Origin: a virus
IMG/VR virus record: IMGVR_UViG_3300025278_000003
Span: 1 to 31,541 of that record
Reading direction: 5' to 3' (one strand)
Length of the DNA: 31,541 nt
Under the pieces are notes generated by a model that saw only the letters and a program-made list of their open reading frames with translations, was not told the DNA's origin and searched no databases. This document shows, piece after piece, positions 2,301 to 15,483 of the stretch (position 1 is the stretch's first letter; every line of letters starts with the position of its first letter). The translations under genes and the position numbers were made by a program.

Positions 2301-3080
2301 ATGAATCAAGAAATAGAAGTATTTGAATTCGGTACAGACGAGCGAAAAAACAGAGCCTTGATATTGGACTCCAAACTAAATGACGCACTGCTTGATACAT
2401 TCGTTATCAGTGCCGAATTAGTTGATCAAAAGCTTTATAAAGAGCTTGGTTATGAAACGGCGAAAGACTATTTCCAAAACAAATCAATTAGTGTAAGTCA
2501 AGCTTATAGATACGCTCAAATTGGCAGAGAAATAAAACCTCTTTTAGAATCAGGTAAAACTAAACATTCTATAAGTATTGCCAACGTTGGCACAAGCAAA
2601 TTAGAAGAAATAGTTAGGCATGCAAACGATCAATTGGAAGGCTTATTTAGCGAAGGTAAGATCAAGCTTGGTGATGAAGAATACAGCACAGATGACCTTC
2701 AGGAGATCTCATTCAGAGAGCTTGATTCCCGACTAAAAACTCTCTCCAAAAAAGTAGAAAAGAACGACCTGCTTGAGGAGCAAAATAAATCATTACAGCT
2801 TGAGAAAAAGGTTCTTTTAAAAGAGCAGGAAGAGTTTAAAAAACGGGATCAAAAGTACAGAGAAGCAAGCGTAACCTACGATGAAATGGAACGCGACATT
2901 GTGGACGCTACCGAGGCGTTTGCAGAGGTTCAGAAACTGCTTAACCGGATCGAAACTTCGCTAGTTCCTAAACAACTCGGCCCACGTTTAAAGCTGCTGA
3001 TTGAGACTATCCAAAATGCAGGTGTAGACATCGCGGAAACGCACTCTGAAGTGATGTTTAAATACGACGAGGGACTGTAA
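2301..3080 (+). CDS. DUF3102/ParB-like DNA-binding coiled-coil protein
   Basis: 259 aa. The N-terminal half is helical with an HTH-like segment (LGYETAKDYFQNKSISVSQA, about residues 50-70), followed by a SIANVGTSKLEE stretch, then a long charged coiled coil (about residues 140-215) and a C-terminal helical cap. DUF3102-type proteins have this HTH plus coiled-coil arrangement. It ends overlapping the transposase ATG by one base and may be a transposition or replication accessory. A perfect 14-bp palindrome of the repressor-array type lies at 2579-2592. Confidence 0.5.
   Translation: MNQEIEVFEFGTDERKNRALILDSKLNDALLDTFVISAELVDQKLYKELGYETAKDYFQNKSISVSQAYRYAQIGREIKPLLESGKTKHSISIANVGTSKLEEIVRHANDQLEGLFSEGKIKLGDEEYSTDDLQEISFRELDSRLKTLSKKVEKNDLLEEQNKSLQLEKKVLLKEQEEFKKRDQKYREASVTYDEMERDIVDATEAFAEVQKLLNRIETSLVPKQLGPRLKLLIETIQNAGVDIAETHSEVMFKYDEGL
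2579..2592. repeat. Isolated ACGT palindrome TGCCAACGTTGGCA
   Basis: Perfect 14-bp palindrome. It differs by one base from the third palindrome of the repressor array (TGCCGACGTTGGCA, 695-708), and that base restores perfect symmetry. Here it is read GCC AAC GTT GGC (Ala-Asn-Val-Gly), whereas in the repressor the core is read CCA ACG TTG (Pro-Thr-Leu). The DNA is therefore conserved across two reading frames. Confidence 0.85.
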
Positions 3081-4675
3081 TGTTGAACGAAGCATTAAAG
3101 AATGAATACAGAGGCGAGCTTCGTTTATTGCCTCACGGAAAAAAAGGGAAAAGAGCGGAAGAAATAGCCGTTCAGCATGGCATCAGCAAAAGCCAATTGT
3201 ACAGAGAAATCGACATCACCGCAGGGCAAAAAAAATGCAAACGAGAGCCGGAGATCCCGACCGAATATATCAACCTGATAGCAGCCGAAAAAGCCGATGC
3301 CGGAAAGATGGGAATGAGCAAGCGATTTCTTACTACCGAGGACGCTATTGACCTGCTTGAGCAGTCGGGAAAAATACCTGAAGGAATGATCTCGGTATCA
3401 ACCGCAGACCGCAGAATGAGAGAGCTTGGCTTTAATAAAAAGCGCACCTACGAACGCCATGAAGATGACTATGTAAACCAAGTGCATCATGTGGATTTTT
3501 CCCGATCGGAATACTTTGATGTGGGCATCAATAAAGAAGGCGAAGAGATCATCCGCGTGGATGGAAGAAAAGGCAAATGGGATTATAAAAATAAGGAAAA
3601 AGCAGAGCGCAAAAGACTGTGGGTAATGGGGTATGTGGATTCCTTTTCGAGAGTGTATTTAGTGAGGTATTTCAGCGCTACCGGTGAGACCAAAAGCATG
3701 GGTACGGAAGCTCTTGAATTTGCATGGCAACGCGAGGATGACAGCCATCCATTGTTGCATCTTCCTGAGGTGCTAAAGTTTGACCAGGGAAGCTTTGGAA
3801 AGTACCTGTTTCATCACAAAACCTTTCAGCGAGATACCGGCATTAGAGTGGAGCTTGCTGCTAGTAAAAATGAACGCTATGCCGACCAACAATCGCAAGG
3901 TAAAGTGGAGCGACCGTTCCGAAGTTTGTGGCAACGATTTGAAGCCAAAACAGCTAAGATTTTAAAGGCTAAAGGGATCAGCGAAATTAGTATTGAAGAG
4001 CTGAATGCTTTGGTGTATAAGCACTGCATTGAACTACTTGAAAAGAAGCATCCATTGAGAGTGCAAACGCGCGGAGAAGTGTACCGAACCGGATTGAGAT
4101 TCCGCGAACAAAGCAAACTTTCAGTATCGCTTTGGGATCTGTTATTTAATGAAGAAACTAGAAAGGTTGGCGCTGATAAACTGCTTAGTTACAAAGCTCA
4201 ATTTTATAAAGCTCCTGATAAATTTGCCTACCAAAGGATCTATGTATTTGAGACCAACGATGGCCGACTTAAAGGGCAGGATTTAGACCGGCACGAAGAG
4301 TTTGAATTGTTCGCTTTTGATCCTGATAACACGGAAGCCGTGAAGCAACGTCCGGAGGATTACATGCAGCGCATGGGCAATGCCGGATCAAGCCTTGACG
4401 GAAGCAAAATGACACTGGTTAACAGCTCAGGCGCAGCCTTGCAACCGCACAGCTTACCACCGGAGGAAAGCGAGGTTGAAGTGAGCACTCCATTTACTGC
4501 AAAAGTAAGCAAACCATATACGGAGTGGGATGTAGCGAAGCTTGAGATCTGCAAAGTATTTAACTGCTCCTGGAGTGAATTAGCTGAGAGCGCACAGTCC
4601 ATTTTTAAACGACTGTTTGATGCCGAGCAACTGGACAAAAAGACGATCGAAGATCTTTATCAGGAGGTGAGCTGA
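3080..4675 (+). CDS. Mu-type DDE transposase (MuA-like)
   Basis: 531 aa. The N-terminal region has an HTH (AEEIAVQHGISKSQLYREI, about 26-44) for end binding. The central rve/DDE core carries D139 (VHHVDFS), D235 (LKFDQGS) and E277 (QGKVERPF), with 41 residues between the last two, typical of the D,D-35-E-type spacing. A Mu-type beta-barrel/C-terminal region follows; its last ~40 residues probably contact the ATPase subunit. It cuts and joins the phage ends during integration and replicative transposition, presumably acting on the TGCGACA repeats at the window edges. Followed by a one-base overlap with the next gene and then by ATPase B. Confidence 0.93.
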   Translation: MLNEALKNEYRGELRLLPHGKKGKRAEEIAVQHGISKSQLYREIDITAGQKKCKREPEIPTEYINLIAAEKADAGKMGMSKRFLTTEDAIDLLEQSGKIPEGMISVSTADRRMRELGFNKKRTYERHEDDYVNQVHHVDFSRSEYFDVGINKEGEEIIRVDGRKGKWDYKNKEKAERKRLWVMGYVDSFSRVYLVRYFSATGETKSMGTEALEFAWQREDDSHPLLHLPEVLKFDQGSFGKYLFHHKTFQRDTGIRVELAASKNERYADQQSQGKVERPFRSLWQRFEAKTAKILKAKGISEISIEELNALVYKHCIELLEKKHPLRVQTRGEVYRTGLRFREQSKLSVSLWDLLFNEETRKVGADKLLSYKAQFYKAPDKFAYQRIYVFETNDGRLKGQDLDRHEEFELFAFDPDNTEAVKQRPEDYMQRMGNAGSSLDGSKMTLVNSSGAALQPHSLPPEESEVEVSTPFTAKVSKPYTEWDVAKLEICKVFNCSWSELAESAQSIFKRLFDAEQLDKKTIEDLYQEVS

Positions 4676-4878
4676 TGAGCTGCTTCCCAACCGCAGAACT
4701 TACTAATGAGGAAGCCCACGAACTCGGGCTGATTGATGATCAGGAATACTTTGAAATGAACCACCAGGAGCGCACCGAGGCTTTGGATTTTCACGGTCGT
4801 GATCTTTGCTACGATCTGAAGTCTGCTAGATCACCCATTGAAGAACTTATAGAAGCAATAAAACTAATCTATAAATAA
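4675..4878 (+). CDS. Small acidic protein between transposase and ATPase B
   Basis: 67 aa. The ATG shares a base with the transposase stop (TGATG) and follows an AGGAGG sequence, so translation is coupled. Acidic, mostly helical, one LTNEEAHELGLIDDQEYFEM stretch; no recognised domain. Its position inside the transposition operon suggests an accessory role, but function is unknown. Confidence 0.6.
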   Translation: MSCFPTAELTNEEAHELGLIDDQEYFEMNHQERTEALDFHGRDLCYDLKSARSPIEELIEAIKLIYK

Positions 4879-4887
4879 GAAGGACAA

Positions 4888-5814
4888 ATGAGCACACAAT
4901 TAGAAATATTCAAGCACTTTAAGATCAAGGCGGTCAGTGATGACAAGAAGATCAATATCACTAAAACCCAAACTTATGAAAGAATTAAGCAAACGTTAGA
5001 TTCTTTAATTCAGGATGACGGATGGAGAGCTTTCTCCGGAAGAATTGGTTCCGGTAAAACTACCACGATCATTGGAGCGATCAGAGACATCCACGATGAG
5101 AATAAAAACTTTGATGTGGTTGAGATCCTTTCCCCGGACAGAGAAAAAGTTGGAGCCGGACAAATACTTGCAGCCTTTGTTCATCAAGTTGGCAAAATGT
5201 ATATCGGTCAAGATTTCCCATCCGGAAAGATTGACACTAGATATGCTCAAGTTCAAAGAATACTAATGTCAGCTTATGAGAAGAAGAAGAAAATAGTACT
5301 GGTAATTGATGAAGCCCAGGAGCTGAATACTAAAGTACTGAATACTATAAAAAGGCTGAGAGATACAACATTTGCGAAAAGGGCGATTCACTTACCAGTG
5401 ATATTGATCGGGCAGCCTGCACTTGATCCGATGATCCGAAATAATGACGAGGTTAAGCACCGGATTAGAAGCAACCAATTTGGTTACACACGAAAAGAGC
5501 TTATTGAGATCCTTTTATTTCTGAGCAAGGGATTATTGAGCCGAGAAACATGTGCAAAAATTGTGGATGCGAAAACAACTGAGGATGGTTTTAGAAGCAA
5601 ACTTTATCCTACGCCACTGGAATTAGAAAGCGATGTACAGATTGCAATGGAGAATGCTTTTAATCTGAATCATGAAGCCCTTGAATTAAAACATTTTGAA
5701 ATAAGGGAGTTACAACAGACTGCGCCAAAAAAGGAGCGCAAAAAGATTGAGATCAGCGCTGATATTGCAGACGCTAAGATCAAAAATATTGAGTCAACAA
5801 AGGAGGCGTCATGA
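4888..5814 (+). CDS. MuB/TniB-type AAA+ ATPase, target-DNA activator
   Basis: 308 aa. Walker A GRIGSGKT (residues 51-58) and Walker B KIVLVIDEAQ (136-144), with sensor and lid regions after; the C terminus is charged. Proteins of this family bind target DNA in an ATP-dependent way and stimulate the DDE transposase. Location two genes after the transposase, with AGAAGGA upstream, fits. The Walker A carries GxGKT rather than the more divergent MuB version, closer to TniB/TnsC-like ATPases. Confidence 0.88.
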   Translation: MSTQLEIFKHFKIKAVSDDKKINITKTQTYERIKQTLDSLIQDDGWRAFSGRIGSGKTTTIIGAIRDIHDENKNFDVVEILSPDREKVGAGQILAAFVHQVGKMYIGQDFPSGKIDTRYAQVQRILMSAYEKKKKIVLVIDEAQELNTKVLNTIKRLRDTTFAKRAIHLPVILIGQPALDPMIRNNDEVKHRIRSNQFGYTRKELIEILLFLSKGLLSRETCAKIVDAKTTEDGFRSKLYPTPLELESDVQIAMENAFNLNHEALELKHFEIRELQQTAPKKERKKIEISADIADAKIKNIESTKEAS

Positions 5815-7330: not shown

Positions 7331-7490
7331 CGCTCAATTACACGTGCGCTCGGTAAACGAAAAGCTAAAAAATAAAGGCTATACCGATGCGCAAATATCA
7401 GACTGGTGGGAGCTTGAGCTCTACCGACAACAAAGAAGGAAGGATAAAAATAAAGTGAATGCAGATTCCAAAAAAACTACAGAACCTTAA
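7317..7490 (+). CDS. Small basic protein, TTG start
   Basis: About 57 aa if started at TTG 7317, which lies 7 nt after GAGGAG; a TTG at 7302 in frame is the alternative. Contains a helical KLKNKGYTDAQISDWWELELYRQQRRKDKNK segment (basic, likely nucleic-acid or protein binding). It overlaps both neighbours. Function unknown; start uncertain. Confidence 0.45.
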   Translation: MGIHSAQLHVRSVNEKLKNKGYTDAQISDWWELELYRQQRRKDKNKVNADSKKTTEP

Positions 7491-8076
7491 TTACTTAGTG
7501 GCCGTGCCGCTTATTGTTATGAGCTATCACATTTTCAACTTTTATGAAACCGAACCAACCTTGGTCAGGATCTCACTGGCGCTGAGCTTCGACCTTATGG
7601 TGGTGGTTTGTTTCTACCTGTTGAAAGATCCCATGATCGCCAAACTGAAACACGCAAAGAAAGCAACTTGGATCGCGCTGTTGGTGCTGATCAGTTTTCA
7701 GTTGTATGTGAATGTGTGGGCGTACTGGGAACTACACTGGTTCCGCGCTGTTCTTTCCGGATCTATACTTCCGGTGAGCGTTGCTTTTATCACTTACATA
7801 AGCATGCTCCGTGAACAGCAGGCCGAGATCAAAGAAGCCAAGGATGAAAAGCGACAGCAAGTCCAGGAGAAGATCCAAGAGATTTTTGAAACTGAGGCAG
7901 GGCTAAAAGAGATCGCCGGTGAATATCCCTTTGAAGATGTAAAGGTTGAAAAGCCTGAAGTGATAAAAGCATTTAACAAAGATCCAGAAACAGCTTCTGA
8001 CCTGTTTTTAAGATGTGACAATCGCCGTTCTGTTTTGCGATGGTTGAAGAAATTAGAAAAAGGAGAAACACCGTGA
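7459..8076 (+). CDS. Four-span membrane protein with shared C-terminal module
   Basis: 205 aa. Hydrophobic segments at about 12-28, 37-56, 70-88 and 96-116, then a charged coiled coil (117-150) and a C-terminal domain (157-205) ending NRRSVLRWLKKLEKGETP. The last 48 residues match the C terminus of the BRO-N protein at 13016 at 27 of 48 positions. This suggests a modular membrane-anchored effector whose cytoplasmic end shares a partner or target with the BRO-N protein. Function unknown. The codons for LEKGET also provide the AAAGGAG ribosome site of the next gene. Confidence 0.7.
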   Translation: MQIPKKLQNLNYLVAVPLIVMSYHIFNFYETEPTLVRISLALSFDLMVVVCFYLLKDPMIAKLKHAKKATWIALLVLISFQLYVNVWAYWELHWFRAVLSGSILPVSVAFITYISMLREQQAEIKEAKDEKRQQVQEKIQEIFETEAGLKEIAGEYPFEDVKVEKPEVIKAFNKDPETASDLFLRCDNRRSVLRWLKKLEKGETP

Positions 8077-10906: not shown

Positions 10907-11758
10907 ATGAGCATCTTCGCAGAAATAGAATCTCTTGAGCAGCGCATTCAAAGCATACTTGCAGAGTCGGGATCGTACAGCTCGGTTGATGATTTTGTAC
11001 GCACCTACACCGATACCATTTTGGATGTGCTTGGCTCGTTCTCTAAATCGGAGTTGGCTTCCATTAATATTGATGATGTAATTGAAACTGCTCTTCAGGC
11101 TTCTTCTGATTTCATTAACGTGAACATGAAGGATGAGATCCAATCTTCTATTGATGATGTGCTTACCAGGACAACAACCTTCTACCAGTCGGTTGGTGTG
11201 GAGCTTCCCGGACTGAAGGACGCCATCAATAGAACCGATGATATTGCTGAGATCTCGAAACTCTTCAGCACCAACTTGGCAAGCATGCGTGAGGAGCTTC
11301 GCGAAGGAACTAAGGAAGTAATGCAGAGCGAATTGGCTCAGGGATTTTTTAATCGCGAGGATCTCGAGGAGCTTATCTTTCAGTACGCCGATGGCAAAGC
11401 ACACTACGCCCGTATAAACGCTCGATTGATTGTTAGCAGCTATAACCGCATCGGGCGAGAGCAAGTGCGAGAGAGCGCAAATTTACAGCATGGCTTCTAT
11501 TACGGTGACGCCCGGGTGAACACTCGCCCTTTTTGTTTGCGCCTTATCGGTAAAGTCTTTACTCTCCAAGACATCGAGCAAATGGATAACGGTCAGTTGA
11601 GTCCTGTTAAGATCTATGCCGGCGGATGGAATTGCATTCATTCTTGGCTTTGGGTTGATCCTGAATGGGATGAGGAGTTAGCAAGTAACATTAATACTGA
11701 TCCGGTTGTGCCGGTGGAAGAGGATTCGTTGAAGATTAAAGCGCCTTCGGCGAATTAA
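10907..11758 (+). CDS. MuF-like minor head protein (SPP1 gp7 type)
   Basis: 283 aa. The N-terminal two thirds are helical. The C-terminal region has the MuF signature: YYGDARVNTRPFC, then GKVFTLQDIEQM.NGQ, then GGWNCIHSWLWV (GG.NC.H.W). In Mu, gpF is a minor head protein next to the portal. Here it is on the plus strand about 4 kb from the portal, which lies in an inverted block, so the usual portal-MuF adjacency is broken. Confidence 0.82.
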   Translation: MSIFAEIESLEQRIQSILAESGSYSSVDDFVRTYTDTILDVLGSFSKSELASINIDDVIETALQASSDFINVNMKDEIQSSIDDVLTRTTTFYQSVGVELPGLKDAINRTDDIAEISKLFSTNLASMREELREGTKEVMQSELAQGFFNREDLEELIFQYADGKAHYARINARLIVSSYNRIGREQVRESANLQHGFYYGDARVNTRPFCLRLIGKVFTLQDIEQMDNGQLSPVKIYAGGWNCIHSWLWVDPEWDEELASNINTDPVVPVEEDSLKIKAPSAN

Positions 11759-11790
11759 AAATTCAAAATTAAAAATTAAGAATTAGGAAT

Positions 11791-11991
11791 ATGAACAGAA
11801 AAGGATTTATAACTTCGATCGAATGGGCTCCGGTTTTAAACAGCGATGTTTGTGAAAGTTGCAAGCAAAGATCCATGATTTCAAATATTGGCGATAAAAA
11901 AGTTTCTGGATTAAGCTGCTCGAACCCTTCCTGCGAAGAGTTTTTAGTTCCTAAAGTTGAAGAAATTGGTGATTGGAATAAATTACTATGA
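11791..11991 (+). CDS. Zinc-ribbon small protein
   Basis: 66 aa with C21-X2-C24 and C43-X4-C48 (CESC … CSNPSC), a spacing like the Ogr-type protein at 8273 but with a shorter middle. Preceded by an AT-rich leader ending AGAATTAGGAAT. Stop overlaps the next ATG. Possible small DNA-binding or RNA-polymerase-contacting factor; no firm family. Confidence 0.55.
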   Translation: MNRKGFITSIEWAPVLNSDVCESCKQRSMISNIGDKKVSGLSCSNPSCEEFLVPKVEEIGDWNKLL

Positions 11992-12323
11992 CTCTAAACC
12001 AATCCATATTGCAGGCGTACGAAAAAGCGAAAGGCTCGGAGAACTTTAAATATAAGTTTGATGACGAGCTTGCTAAAGCTTTGCAAGAAGGATTGGAAAT
12101 CACTCTGAAGCAAGGACAGCTTCGAGATCTCACCGATAAGATTTGGTACACTTCTAACTTGATGAAAGACCGCCAAATTAAAACAGAAGGCCAGTGGTTG
12201 AAGATGGCAGCGCAAGTTACTGAGAAGTATTTATTAGAGAATATAGACACCTACAAGAGAGCACCCCTGGAAGGACACCAGTTAATAACAAACCAAAACA
12301 ATACAATTAAGGAAACATCATGA
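11988..12323 (+). CDS. Hypothetical helical protein
   Basis: 111 aa, helical, with LAKALQEGLEITLKQGQLRDL. Overlaps both neighbours by 4 nt, so it belongs to the same transcript. No recognised family. Confidence 0.55.
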   Translation: MTLNQSILQAYEKAKGSENFKYKFDDELAKALQEGLEITLKQGQLRDLTDKIWYTSNLMKDRQIKTEGQWLKMAAQVTEKYLLENIDTYKRAPLEGHQLITNQNNTIKETS

Positions 12324-12811
12324 AACAATTACTAATATTTATAATCGCATTCTTAGTTACAGGATGCGCAACCACATTACCTCCTGCTGGGCCAGATTCA
12401 TCAGCAATGGAAAAAGCAGATGCAATTTGGATAGTATCCAACGATGACGCAGAAACGGCGTATAGGAAAATTGCTCAGTCTTTAACAGATGCTGGATATT
12501 CGATTTCAAGTTCGGATGCAGTATTGATGAATATAGTTACAGAGCCTTACCAACCAAGCGAATCATTTGGTGATGCATTATCAAGCGGAGGAATGAAGGT
12601 TGTTTTAAATGCCTCAGTCCGTGAAGTTGAAGGTAAGACAGCGGTTAAACTTTCCGGTAAGTTTACAATACCTGGATTATATGGTTCAGACGATAATGAA
12701 ATACGTAATCAAGGAGCAGGAACGAGCTATACTGGAAGAAGCTGGAAAGAACTCGAAAGAATAGCTGAATCTTACTCTGGTGGTTCTTTAGAATACACAC
12801 GTAATATGTAG
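12320..12811 (+). CDS. Lipoprotein, possible lysogenic-conversion gene
   Basis: 163 aa. Signal peptide with lipobox VTGC (C16), then a Ser/Pro-rich linker and a domain with AETAYRKIAQSLTDAGYSISSSDAVL and SFGDALSSGG. The second half is beta-rich. It resembles host-type envelope lipoproteins more than virion proteins. Its place before the RNA element and BRO-N gene, away from the lysis and head genes, suggests a moron acting on the host envelope (inference). Confidence 0.6.
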   Translation: MKQLLIFIIAFLVTGCATTLPPAGPDSSAMEKADAIWIVSNDDAETAYRKIAQSLTDAGYSISSSDAVLMNIVTEPYQPSESFGDALSSGGMKVVLNASVREVEGKTAVKLSGKFTIPGLYGSDDNEIRNQGAGTSYTGRSWKELERIAESYSGGSLEYTRNM

Positions 12812-12812
12812 C

Positions 12813-12990
12813 TTGACAATGACCTGCGGTTCTTGTAGATTTTTCTCACTCCGAAAAAACACTAAGAACCGCATCGCATTTGGCTTCAATTGTAGCCGAT
12901 GCAATTATACAAGCTTATGCCGGTGCGTCACCCGTAACCAATCGGGTGGATGGTTCCTTAGTGTACCATTTCGGAGCGCATCGGCTTTTT
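12813..12990 (+). ncRNA. Structured RNA / riboswitch-like leader with own promoter
   Basis: A sigma-70-like promoter TTGACA (12813-12818), 17 bp, TAGATT (12836-12841) would start RNA near 12848. The RNA closes by CTCCGAAA (12849-12856) with TTTCGGAG (12969-12976), then ACACTAAG (12859-12866) with CTTAGTGT (12957-12964), then AACC with GGTT: about 20 bp. Inside are GCATCG/CGATGC (12871-12876/12897-12902) and hairpin CACCCG/CGGGTG (12929-12948). GCATCGGC (12978-12985), followed by TTTTT, can instead pair with GCCGATGC (12895-12902). CCGAAA…CACTAA recurs at 12996-13011, 4 nt before the BRO-N ATG. Confidence 0.55.
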
Positions 12991-12995
12991 ATTAA
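12819..12995 (+). CDS. Doubtful small Cys-rich reading frame overlapping the RNA element
   Basis: 58 codons from ATG 12819. The frame begins MTCGSCRFF and has further cysteines (CSRC, LCRC) and GGW, reminiscent of small phage CxxC proteins, but its end lacks the usual closing CG(E)F. It coincides with the base-paired RNA element, and its ATG would sit between the -35 and -10 of the predicted promoter. It could be a decayed gene, a dual-function region or chance. Confidence 0.25.
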   Translation: MTCGSCRFFSLRKNTKNRIAFGFNCSRCNYTSLCRCVTRNQSGGWFLSVPFRSASAFY

Positions 12996-13015
12996 CCGAA
13001 AAAAACACTAATACA

Positions 13016-13660
13016 ATGAACACACTTCAAACTTTTACCTTCGATAAAAAAGACATCCGAGTTTTCGGAAACGCAGACGAGCCTCTCTTTGCTGCGGTCG
13101 ATATTTGCAAAGCACTAGATATCGAAAACACGACACAGAGTGTCAGCAGATTAGAAGAAGATGAACGCTCAACCCTATATACTAATGAGGGTTCAAGTAA
13201 CAATTCTGAGTTAAATGTCGTGAACGAAGCCGGACTTTACCGACTTGTTTTAGAGAGCCGTAAACCCGAAGCCAAAGCATTTAAGCGTTGGTTACTTCAC
13301 GAGGTGCTTCCTTCCATCCGAAAGTACGGCGGTTACGCAACCGACAGCCAGTTCCGGGAATTGCATGAGGCGTTGCTCCGTAAAAAGGAGTTGCTCCAGG
13401 AGCGCGAAGAAATAGCAGAAGAGATCAAAGAATGCACCAAAAAGATCAACAGGATTCAATCAGCAATCACTGAAAGTCCTGTTCAGCACAAACTGGACAA
13501 AGCCGAACGGCCATATGAAGGTGTAAAGGTTTCTACTTTTCAGGTAAGCGAAGTATTCAAAACAGATCCGATAAATGGAAAGGACCTTTTTCTTGGATGC
13601 TCTAACAGGCGCACTGTTTTGCGGTGGTGGAAAAAGCTCCAAAAGGGAGAAACGATATGA
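13016..13660 (+). CDS. BRO-N domain antirepressor-like protein
   Basis: 214 aa. Residues 1-107 form a BRO-N domain (FTFDKKDIRVFGNADEPLF, AVDICKALDI, VNEAGLYRLVLES, AFKRWLLHEVLPSIRKYG), found in phage antirepressors and DNA-binding regulators. Residues 113-152 are a coiled coil; 167-214 are a module shared with the membrane protein at 7459 (27 of 48 identical). No Shine-Dalgarno is visible; the upstream sequence is a copy of the RNA element's helix strand, so translation may be regulated by RNA structure. Likely role: antirepressor or lysogeny/lysis regulator. Confidence 0.82.
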   Translation: MNTLQTFTFDKKDIRVFGNADEPLFAAVDICKALDIENTTQSVSRLEEDERSTLYTNEGSSNNSELNVVNEAGLYRLVLESRKPEAKAFKRWLLHEVLPSIRKYGGYATDSQFRELHEALLRKKELLQEREEIAEEIKECTKKINRIQSAITESPVQHKLDKAERPYEGVKVSTFQVSEVFKTDPINGKDLFLGCSNRRTVLRWWKKLQKGETI

Positions 13661-13872
13661 ACAGCCTGAACTTACCACCCAAACAAAAACGAAAAGATGT
13701 GATCAATGATTTTGATGAACGCCTCGCTACTTTGGAAGCTTGCGTATTCGCGGCTATGTTTATGCTTGAAGAGCACAGCGGTAAAGAGACGCCCATCAGC
13801 TTTGCATTGTGGCAAAACTTTGAACATCTTAAAGACAGCTATCAAACCCTTAAGCAGGCAAACGCTGCCTAA
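13657..13872 (+). CDS. Small hypothetical protein
   Basis: 71 aa from ATG 13657, overlapping the BRO-N stop (ATGA) and preceded by AGGGAGAAACG inside the coding end of BRO-N. Helical, with RKDVINDFDERLATLEACVFAAMFML, which could pack as a helical hairpin. Last gene before a strong terminator. Function unknown. Confidence 0.6.
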   Translation: MNSLNLPPKQKRKDVINDFDERLATLEACVFAAMFMLEEHSGKETPISFALWQNFEHLKDSYQTLKQANAA

Positions 13873-13878
13873 CTATGA

Positions 13879-13904
13879 AGCCCTCTTCCCGGAGGGCTTT
13901 TTTT
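13879..13904 (+). terminator. Rho-independent terminator
   Basis: AGCCCTC, loop TTCCCG, GAGGGCT, followed directly by a run of seven T. A textbook intrinsic terminator. It ends the transcript containing the BRO-N gene. Confidence 0.9.
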
Positions 13905-13932
13905 ATGGACCTAAAAAAACTTCAATTATTTA

Positions 13933-13972
13933 AATGCACAATGTTGTGCATTATTAAAATAAGTTGTATATT
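13933..13972 (+). promoter_or_regulatory. Promoter overlapped by a palindromic operator
   Basis: AATGCACAA-TG-TTGTGCATT (13933-13952) is a 9+9-bp perfect dyad. It overlaps TTGTGC (13944-13949), which is 17 bp from TATATT (13967-13972), a good sigma-70-like pair. It drives the gene at 14033. The sequence is unlike the dyad at 1001-1016, so a different regulator is expected; the HTH protein at 14824 is a candidate. Confidence 0.6.
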
Positions 13973-14032
13973 GGTCTAAGCAATTAAGCTTAAACAATCC
14001 GAGCGGTGTCAGCTCACAAAAAACCGACTATT

Positions 14033-14590
14033 ATGAAAGCTTCAGACAAACAATTCAGAAATCGCAGAGTTAAGCAAATCGAAAGTCTTTGCGAAAAATT
14101 CAATATTCCTGCTCACAAGCACTTTGCACAAACAGGAACAGTTTACTTTACTTTTGAAATAAACAACGAATCTGTAAAGTATAGAATAGCCGACCATGCA
14201 GATGCTTACGGCACAGCTAATTATAATTCAGATCCATATGAGTGTGATGACTATTTTCAATTTAAAAAAGAATTGATTAAAGAATACAAACCAATATTTG
14301 AAGACGCGCAAAAAGAAATGAGAGAAATTGAACAAGCTCATGATCTAAAGATTAAATCTGCACATGAAAAAAACATGCAAGACCCTCTTTATAGACTTGC
14401 ACAGAGATACCAAAAAGAATCTAATTATGATTTGGTACAGGTTGCAAATTTATTAAGAAGATTTAAAAATGAAGAAAATTCAGATGAATCTGTAATTAGC
14501 TTCATTCTTAATGACGAGCACGATTATAGAGATGAGGCAGCTATATCTTTGCTAATTGAAACAGTAAACCAAGATTTGAACAATGCCTAA
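14033..14590 (+). CDS. Hypothetical charged protein, separately promoted
   Basis: 185 aa from ATG 14033 (an in-frame GTG at 14006 is the alternative). A basic N terminus, a beta-rich part (TVYFTFEINNESVKYRIADHADAYG), a long charged helix (residues ~75-120) and a C-terminal helical region. More A-rich than neighbours, suggesting later acquisition. Transcribed from its own palindrome-controlled promoter after a terminator, so it may be expressed in the prophage. No recognised family; a defence or immunity role is only a guess. Confidence 0.6.
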   Translation: MKASDKQFRNRRVKQIESLCEKFNIPAHKHFAQTGTVYFTFEINNESVKYRIADHADAYGTANYNSDPYECDDYFQFKKELIKEYKPIFEDAQKEMREIEQAHDLKIKSAHEKNMQDPLYRLAQRYQKESNYDLVQVANLLRRFKNEENSDESVISFILNDEHDYRDEAAISLLIETVNQDLNNA

Positions 14591-14822
14591 ACTACCAAGA
14601 TTTATGATAGCTGAGAATCCAATGACAGATGATCGGCTGTTTATTATACACAATAGAAAGCCTCGATTTATAGCTGAGGTTAAAGAACCTGAAATAGAAG
14701 TCGTTCAATGGATTGATGATCCAGACCGACCAGAACGGCTTGCTAAATTAATGAGCCGTATGGGCGACTGGTACGTTGCCTATTGCGAATGGGAAGATGA
14801 CGACACGCCAAACCTAAATTGA
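14583..14822 (+). CDS. Small acidic hypothetical protein
   Basis: 79 aa, overlapping the previous gene by 8 nt. Acidic C terminus (CEWEDDDTP); beta-rich middle (RFIAEVKEPEIEVVQWIDDP). No recognised family. Confidence 0.55.
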   Translation: MPKLPRFMIAENPMTDDRLFIIHNRKPRFIAEVKEPEIEVVQWIDDPDRPERLAKLMSRMGDWYVAYCEWEDDDTPNLN

Positions 14823-14823
14823 T

Positions 14824-15009
14824 ATGACACATAAAGCCCTTAAACAATTCTTTGACGAACGTCCTGCTATTTCAAAAGCTATGATAGCTGAGGAAGCAAG
14901 TATTTCAAGACGGACGCTTAATTATGCGATTGATGATGGAGTGATTTCTAAGAAGACAGCCGAAGCACTTCTTCCTGTTTTGCAAAAATACGGCTGGCAA
15001 TCAGCGTAA
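14824..15009 (+). CDS. Small HTH protein
   Basis: 61 aa. AMIAEEASISRRTLNYAIDDGVISKKTAEALLPVL is a compact XRE-like HTH. It closes the small operon 13933-15009 and may autoregulate through the 13933-13952 palindrome. Its end overlaps the convergent spanin candidate gene by 9 nt. Confidence 0.65.
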   Translation: MTHKALKQFFDERPAISKAMIAEEASISRRTLNYAIDDGVISKKTAEALLPVLQKYGWQSA

Positions 15010-15483
15010 TCTTCTAGCTACCAAAAGCACTAGCACGAATGCGATCAAGCCACCGATCAGTAACGTTCCCCACCACGGTATTTTGCGTTCGTACTTTACA
15101 GTCTCTTTGGTTTCGGTTATGGTTTTCTCGGCAACGCTCACCTGTTGGGTATCGGGCTTAACTTCAGCGATCACTCGGTAGCGATTCACACCTTTGCGGA
15201 CATCGCGGACACTCTCATTTTTTATGATTCCTGACGCGGACACACTTTCCGGATCTGCGGACAAATCTAAATCAGGAAGCGGTATGATGGTGACGCGAAC
15301 GCGATCATCTTCGACAACAATGGTATCTGCTGCAATGACGGGAACGTCTAAGACATGCCCGGCAATAGGCACACTCACTTGCACAGAATCAATGCGTTCA
15401 GTGCGTGAGGAGGTTATTCGTTCAATTTGGCGACAGCCCGAAAGTGTCGTGAGTAGCAAAATCAATGGTACTATTTTTGTCAT
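15001..15483 (-). CDS. Candidate unimolecular spanin (lipobox + C-terminal TM)
   Basis: 160 aa. N-terminal lipoprotein signal with lipobox LSGC (C17); about 115 residues of beta-rich periplasmic sequence; a single C-terminal membrane span (WWGTLLIGGLIAFVLVLLVA, about 135-154) ending RRLR. This OM-lipid plus IM-anchor layout is that of u-spanins (T1 gp11 type), which fuse inner and outer membranes at lysis. Family cannot be proven by sequence alone; topology is the argument. Last gene of the inverted late block, in keeping with a lysis function. Confidence 0.55.
   Translation of the reverse strand: MTKIVPLILLLTTLSGCRQIERITSSRTERIDSVQVSVPIAGHVLDVPVIAADTIVVEDDRVRVTIIPLPDLDLSADPESVSASGIIKNESVRDVRKGVNRYRVIAEVKPDTQQVSVAEKTITETKETVKYERKIPWWGTLLIGGLIAFVLVLLVARRLR

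Follow-up and report, generated by a model that had tools for sequence, protein, structure and literature searches.

C4 RNA of the phages P1 and P7 is a three-stem RNA of about 77 nt whose loops cover ribosome-binding sites and whose 5' part is removed by RNase P (PMC5320573). It silences ant (PMC12197685), with Proteobacteria and phages as its listed range (PMC2864571); control of antirepressors of this type has so far been seen mainly in P1/P7 and phages of Proteobacteria. The sar RNA of P22 is an antisense RNA that blocks translation of ant (PMC12197685). In P4, the CI RNA pairs with seqA and seqC, one on either side of it, which results in transcription termination (PMC4825925). IsrK of Gifsy-1 is transcribed from a promoter of its own, ends at its own terminator and lies upstream of the antirepressor gene anrP; in trans, the short IsrK raises translation of anrP 140-fold (PMC4825925). 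The element presented here precedes an antirepressor-type gene as well, and our literature searches found no description of it.

A structured leader in front of a BRO-N gene

The DNA analysed here (the window) is the whole 31.5 kb virus record IMGVR_UViG_3300025278_000003. It encodes a Mu-type transposase and a MuB-like ATPase together with a terminase, a portal and a head protease; by its gene content the window is a transposable, Mu-like phage. A structured RNA (12849-12990) sits between a promoter-like site and a BRO-N gene, and the locus is composed of the following parts.

12813-12841, plus strand: promoter-like site, TTGACA (12813-12818), a 17-nt spacer and TAGATT (12836-12841)
12849-12866, plus strand: R1, CTCCGAAAAAACACTAAG, 5' strand of P1 and target copy (CTCCGA and CACTAAG)
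12867-12918, plus strand: 5' strand of P2, GCATCG (12871-12876), and a variable insert, as seen in unconstrained folds of five alleles
12919-12927, plus strand: 5' strand of P4, GCCGGTGCG, supported by covariation and independent folds
12929-12948, plus strand: P3 hairpin, CACCCG-UAACCAAU-CGGGUG, with the conserved loop UARYCAAY
12949-12970, plus strand: P5 hairpin, GATGGT/ACCATT, supported by covariation and folds
12957-12976, plus strand: R1', antisense segment, block 2' CTTAGTG (12957-12963) and block 1' TCGGAG (12971-12976)
12977-12990, plus strand: 3' strand of P4, CGCATCGGC, and T-run, possible intrinsic terminator and RNA 3' end
12994-13012, plus strand: R2, CCGAAAAAAACACTAA at 12996-13011, target copy over the ribosome-binding region
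13016-13660, plus strand: BRO-N/Ant-type antirepressor gene (PF02498, phrog_130), presumed target of the RNA

The two promoter-like hexamers show ten matches out of 12, and the RNA is expected to start at or just 5' of R1. The sequence GCATCGGC-TTTTT (12978-12990) closes the element. P4 could possibly act as a terminator, for which the T-run is the argument; a simple terminator scan of the window element did not call it, and its branched loop is unusually large. R1' is complementary to both R1 and R2, the latter ending 3-4 nt 5' of the BRO-N ATG at 13016. The RNA from 12847 to 12990 has a folding energy of -54.9 kcal/mol (z -5.36; none of 200 shuffles as low). An internal loop divides its closing helix into 8 bp and about 11 bp. 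The P5 loop displays block 2' of the antisense segment, and in the folds P2 and P4 compete for pairing with the same stretch at 12919-12927. The promoter, self-closing helix, internal hairpins and T-rich end named in a preliminary description of this DNA are thus all in place, as is the repetition of the 5' closing strand (R1, 12849-12866) directly before the BRO-N ATG (R2, 12996-13011). That description overlooked both the C4-type logic of the locus and a second fold, P4/P3/P5, which is better conserved. A further 10-bp pair that it proposed, TGCGGTTCTT/AAGAACCGCA, does exist in the window (5 of 1000 shuffles give one) and is found in no other allele.

The product of the BRO-N gene matches PF02498 (E 2.9e-22) and the anti-repressor Ant family phrog_130 (E 1.6e-44), and probably serves to bring the phage out of dormancy. 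Its C-terminus (13460-13660) resembles the C-terminus (7930-8076) of a membrane protein encoded at 7459-8076; this common domain shows 34% identity over 145 aa (E 2e-17), and the likeness peaks in the last ~45 residues (...DLFLxCxNRRxVLRWxKKLxKGET).

Relatives in Bacteroidota

Four relatives of the element were found (G032, G060, G129 and G022), all of them in Bacteroidota genomes and two or three in Mu-like prophages. The hosts are assigned to the Bacteroidota (in the sense of GTDB) because the phylum of the Bacteroidales genome G003 also contains all four genomes. G032 and G129 belong to one order, G032 and G060 to one family, and G022 to another order. G060 was detected by a covariance model built from two alleles (window and G032), G129 by a core sequence pattern and G022 by a second covariance model, built from four alleles and spanning only P4 to the T-run, without R1 and R2. 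Since R1 and R2 lie outside this search model and are yet both present in G022 (R1 GCCCAAAATTTACACAAG, R1' CTTGTGTGACTTTGGGC, R2 GCCCAACTAAACACAAG before a BRO-N ATG), this locus is an independent confirmation of the element. Phage genes surround it, the neighbourhood of G060 contains relatives of the terminase and capsid of the window phage, and the surroundings of G129 gave no match to proteins of the window. G022 also carries a second BRO-N gene (L197, 7898-8518, minus strand) that has a promoter (TTGACAACATTTTCAAAACGCCGTACCTTGGTA) near-identical to that of the RNA and a different leader.

The closest relative is the prophage of G032, which is split over contigs and shows 91-98% DNA identity to the window over much of the shared sequence. 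The two diverge at about 11.75-15.0 kb (11750-15016, compared with L178), with ~96% identity on both flanks. Within this divergent island the G032 prophage has a lipoprotein gene of 77% DNA identity, a different BRO-N (100 aa, 35% identity to that of the window) with other cargo after it, and a gene of phrog_1762. The leader is retained in the island: R1 CTCCCAAAAACACTAAG, R1' CTTAGTGATCACTGGGAG, a T-run, R2 CTCCCAAAACACTAAG, 2 nt and the ATG. A relative of the insert in the P2 loop of the window (GATGCAATTATAAAATCTTATGCC) is present in G032 as a separate strong hairpin upstream of R1 (L170, 1466-1560, minus strand), so the position of this insert with respect to the antisense RNA has shifted.

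All five loci follow one plan: TANNTT, R1, a variable stretch, P4 5' strand, P3, P5, R1', P4 3' strand, a T-rich run, R2 and ATG. The hexamer lies 5-7 nt upstream of R1 (TAGATT, TACATT, TAAATT, TATATT and TACCTT); a clear -35 element is absent in G032. The P3 loop UARYCAAY is conserved in each allele, the 3' strand of P4 always follows directly after R1', a T-rich run always lies 3' of P4, and R2 is separated from the ATG by 2-8 nt. The words that make up R1, R1' and R2 mostly differ (CTCCGA and CACTAAG, CTCCCA and CACTAAG, ATCCCA and AACAGAG, CTACCA and AGATTCA, TGCCCA and ACACAAG); R1' nevertheless fits both R1 and R2 of its own locus. The downstream gene is of the antirepressor type in four of the five loci, from unrelated families. 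Bro-N follows the element in the window and, by similarity, in G022, the downstream protein of G032 is weakly BRO-N-like (phrog_2593, E 5e-4; Pfam Bro-N, E 0.02), G129 has P22_AR_N, and the downstream gene of G060 matched no known family. What is common to the loci is therefore the function of the target and not its sequence.

Of 160 viral and genome loci with BRO-N genes, those searched for the element (80 viral loci by blastn, most of the 160 by models) lack it. Searches of viral contigs by transposase and terminase, and of genome contigs by transposase, yielded no relative. Among viral contigs, the DNA patterns hit one coding sequence by chance (L181), and the core pattern hit none; three further candidates, L183 (pattern), L186 (covariance model R2) and L195 (covariance model R3), were rejected as chance matches. 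Blastn of three alleles against phages and of the window allele against plasmids gave no match, and Bacteroides phage p00 lacked the element in the search with covariance model R3. A generic scan for complementarity and direct repeats 5' of BRO-N starts returned for the most part either hairpins of local sequence or ribosome-binding regions that recur around a small upstream frame. At several BRO-N loci (L044 at ~455-765, L060 at ~4640-4935, L037 at ~3280-3573, L147 and L153) the region before the start is repeated about 240-260 bp upstream, where the repeats seemingly precede a small upstream reading frame. Another BRO-N gene is preceded by three palindromic copies of the AATTAAATTATC type, one of them inverted, and a T-run (L028, ~3030-3154); these copies could be operators or a similar RNA.

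Covariation and pairing

Covariation in homologues, which the preliminary description had proposed as a check, was evaluated in block alignments of the five alleles, assembled by hand with N padding, and was found. P1 (R1 with R1') is paired in 97% of cells and R1' with R2 in 91%, each with two-sided changes in 10 of 13 pairs. The predicted exchange of one 3' strand between copy 1 and copy 2 is thus borne out for both pairings, and its regulatory RNA is likewise supported, with a closing helix that covaries. P4 and P3 are paired in 100% of cells (two-sided change in 7 of 19 pairs), P5 in 25 of 25 cells (4 of 5 pairs), and P4, P3 and P5 jointly in 100% of cells (11 of 24 pairs). Most of these measures were reached in none of 500 shuffles, the exceptions being the two-sided pairs of P5 (21/500) and further pair types in P3/P4 (16/500); slid control alignments pair only 30-56% of cells.

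The cognate pairing of R1' and R2 has an energy of -13.9 kcal/mol in the window and of -16.6, -20.2, -18.2 and -24.0 kcal/mol in the other alleles, and for each allele it beats at least 1998 of 2000 shuffled targets. Non-cognate combinations are mostly weaker, with cross-matches where alleles share words. R2 of the window pairs with R1' at 10 of 13 positions and more weakly than R1 does (-13.9 versus -25.8 kcal/mol); in the full-length leaders of all alleles the pairing of R1' with R1 is about as good as that with R2, or better. Since the scaffold is constant and R1, R1' and R2 vary jointly, a cassette of RNA and antirepressor would define immunity specificity.

Two conformers of the RNA

In every allele the 3' ~75 nt (about 72-84 nt) can form a closing stem, P4, around the hairpins P3 and P5. 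Folded alone and without an alignment, each of these 3' domains gives the same three-way junction of P4, P3 and P5 (z -3.2 to -5.1); in G032 and G129, P5 comes out in a slightly different form. The unconstrained full-length RNA adopts a closed form, P1/P2/P3, in all five alleles, and this is more stable than P4-containing folds by 4-10 kcal/mol. When P4 is forced, the linker contains block 1', and block 2' falls within the P5 loop or close to it. As the closed form is the more stable one in the full-length RNA, R1' would be inaccessible there without processing or kinetic trapping of the RNA. The accessible form may arise by removal of the 5' part, as performed by RNase P for C4, or by kinetic trapping. 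The exchange between R1 and R2 is conserved in the five alleles, and an exchange between P2 and P4 is plausible from the folds.

Proposed function and alternative explanations

We consider it probable (roughly three chances in four) that the element is a C4-like phage antisense RNA that confers immunity by blocking translation of the antirepressor. Sequence comparison supports an RNA gene with a promoter-like site, a start at R1 and a T-run at its end. Its 3' domain, with P4 around P3 and P5, presents R1' as block 2' within the P5 loop and as block 1' within the single-stranded linker; R1' is complementary to R2, which covers the ribosome-binding region in front of the antirepressor. R1 is a second target copy within this RNA; it can keep R1' in the closed P1/P2/P3 form and so would buffer or gate it. 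The RNA would presumably be made constitutively in the lysogen, and the antirepressor mRNA would come from upstream genes or from transcripts that read through P4. Pairing of R1' with R2 on this mRNA would block translation and keep lysogeny, and any related phage that enters with an identical R2 would be silenced as well, resulting in immunity. We infer repression as the sign of the effect; the opposite sign exists in IsrK (PMC4825925).

An activator of the IsrK kind is an unlikely alternative. Here, the short RNA ending at the T-run would act in trans to open a read-through mRNA that is closed in cis by pairing of R1' with R2, and would thereby turn the antirepressor on. The gene order is that of IsrK and anrP, and read-through is possible at the present locus. 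However, in all alleles R1 is a partner for R1' that is about as good as R2, or better, and the upstream copy is made first, so R2 should be open by default; repression is the simpler account of a pairing between R1' and R2 that covers the start region.

Still less probable is an attenuator in cis, in which P2 versus P4 (antiterminator and terminator) and R1 versus R2 as partners of R1' would set the read-through, with RNA, protein or ligand as an optional signal, in the manner of P4 CI RNA or of a true riboswitch. The 5' strand of P2 mimics the 3' strand of P4 in the alleles, P2 is part of the unconstrained fold in all five, and P4 CI RNA with seqA and seqC provides a precedent for termination (PMC4825925). 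However, there is no conserved aptamer-like core beyond P3 and P4, P1, the would-be aptamer stem, is the least conserved part, and the Rfam scans gave no riboswitch match. The riboswitch reading of the preliminary description, taken as ligand-sensing, is not supported either: P1 is hypervariable yet always matches the start of the following gene, the behaviour of an antisense specificity segment.

That R1, R1' and R2 are DNA operators bound by the BRO-N protein itself or by a repressor appears very improbable. Two direct copies and one inverted copy are placed around a promoter and co-vary with a downstream gene of the DNA-binding type, but the spacing of the half-blocks varies within one locus (whole sites of 18-20 bp in the window and 16-18 bp in G032), the blocks stay complementary while their A-rich spacers drift, and the covariation of P3, P4 and P5 is left unexplained. 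We give next to no weight to a small Cys-rich protein (12819-12995) with incidental RNA structure: the window does have a 58-codon open frame, but it has no PHROG, Pfam or tblastn match, every frame of G032 contains stops and the other alleles differ, so that the frames are broken and the pairings kept, in accordance with the earlier view that this frame is not a gene.

Beyond the single locus, we see about even odds that Mu-like and other Bacteroidota phages share a family of RNA immunity cassettes not recognised before, in which a fixed scaffold would carry a swappable antisense segment, always matched to the start of the antirepressor gene that travels with it, whatever the family of that gene, and would set immunity groups; the leader may also gate its own read-through through a double strand exchange. 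If the antisense reading is true, Bacteroidota phages would have a separate family before unrelated antirepressors (Bro-N, P22_AR_N), a swappable antisense RNA would be a general route to fix and diversify phage immunity, and immunity specificity should track 13 base pairs.

Comparison with known RNAs

With sar, the element shares the principle of an antisense RNA directed against antirepressor translation; to our knowledge, sar of P22 has no duplicated target before and after the RNA. IsrK of Gifsy-1 in Salmonella is likewise a short RNA directly 5' of an antirepressor gene with a read-through mRNA, but it activates, and its pairing plan is unlike that of the present element. P4 CI RNA has the same placement of an antisense segment between two target copies on one transcript; in contrast, it acts on replication genes via termination and not on the start site of an antirepressor gene.

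The Rfam C4 model (RF01695) gave no match at E<=10 in the window and G032 regions and none at E<=5 in the G060, G129 and G022 loci, and the same scans found no other family, including riboswitches and the IsrK and P4 CI RNA models. For want of a match to the C4 model we file the element as C4-like and not as C4. As a positive control, the IMG/VR contig L076 contains a genuine Rfam C4 (4840-4924, 65.6 bits), located 43 nt before a BRO-N ATG at 4968; Rfam scans of two further batches of BRO-N loci gave no other C4. The segment ACGCCAA (4895) of this C4 is complementary to ATTGGCGT upstream (4764) and downstream (4924) and hence shows the same order of target, antisense and target as the present element. 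The two RNAs differ in their conserved sequences (here the UARYCAAY loop), in the T-run at the 3' end of the present RNA, in the upstream target copy that here also builds the RNA's own closing helix P1, and in the occurrence of the present element in Bacteroidota. Common to both are the position before an antirepressor gene, a closing stem that encloses two hairpins and leaves a linker of 6-7 nt on its 3' side, and antisense segments complementary to the start region (here in five of five loci, with a gene of the antirepressor type in four of five). Both have target copies on either side of the RNA (checked in L076) and a specificity segment that varies on a constant scaffold, and they agree in size, with a 3' domain of ~75 nt here and 77 nt in C4, a size that would fit cleavage by RNase P at the base of the closing stem, as for C4.
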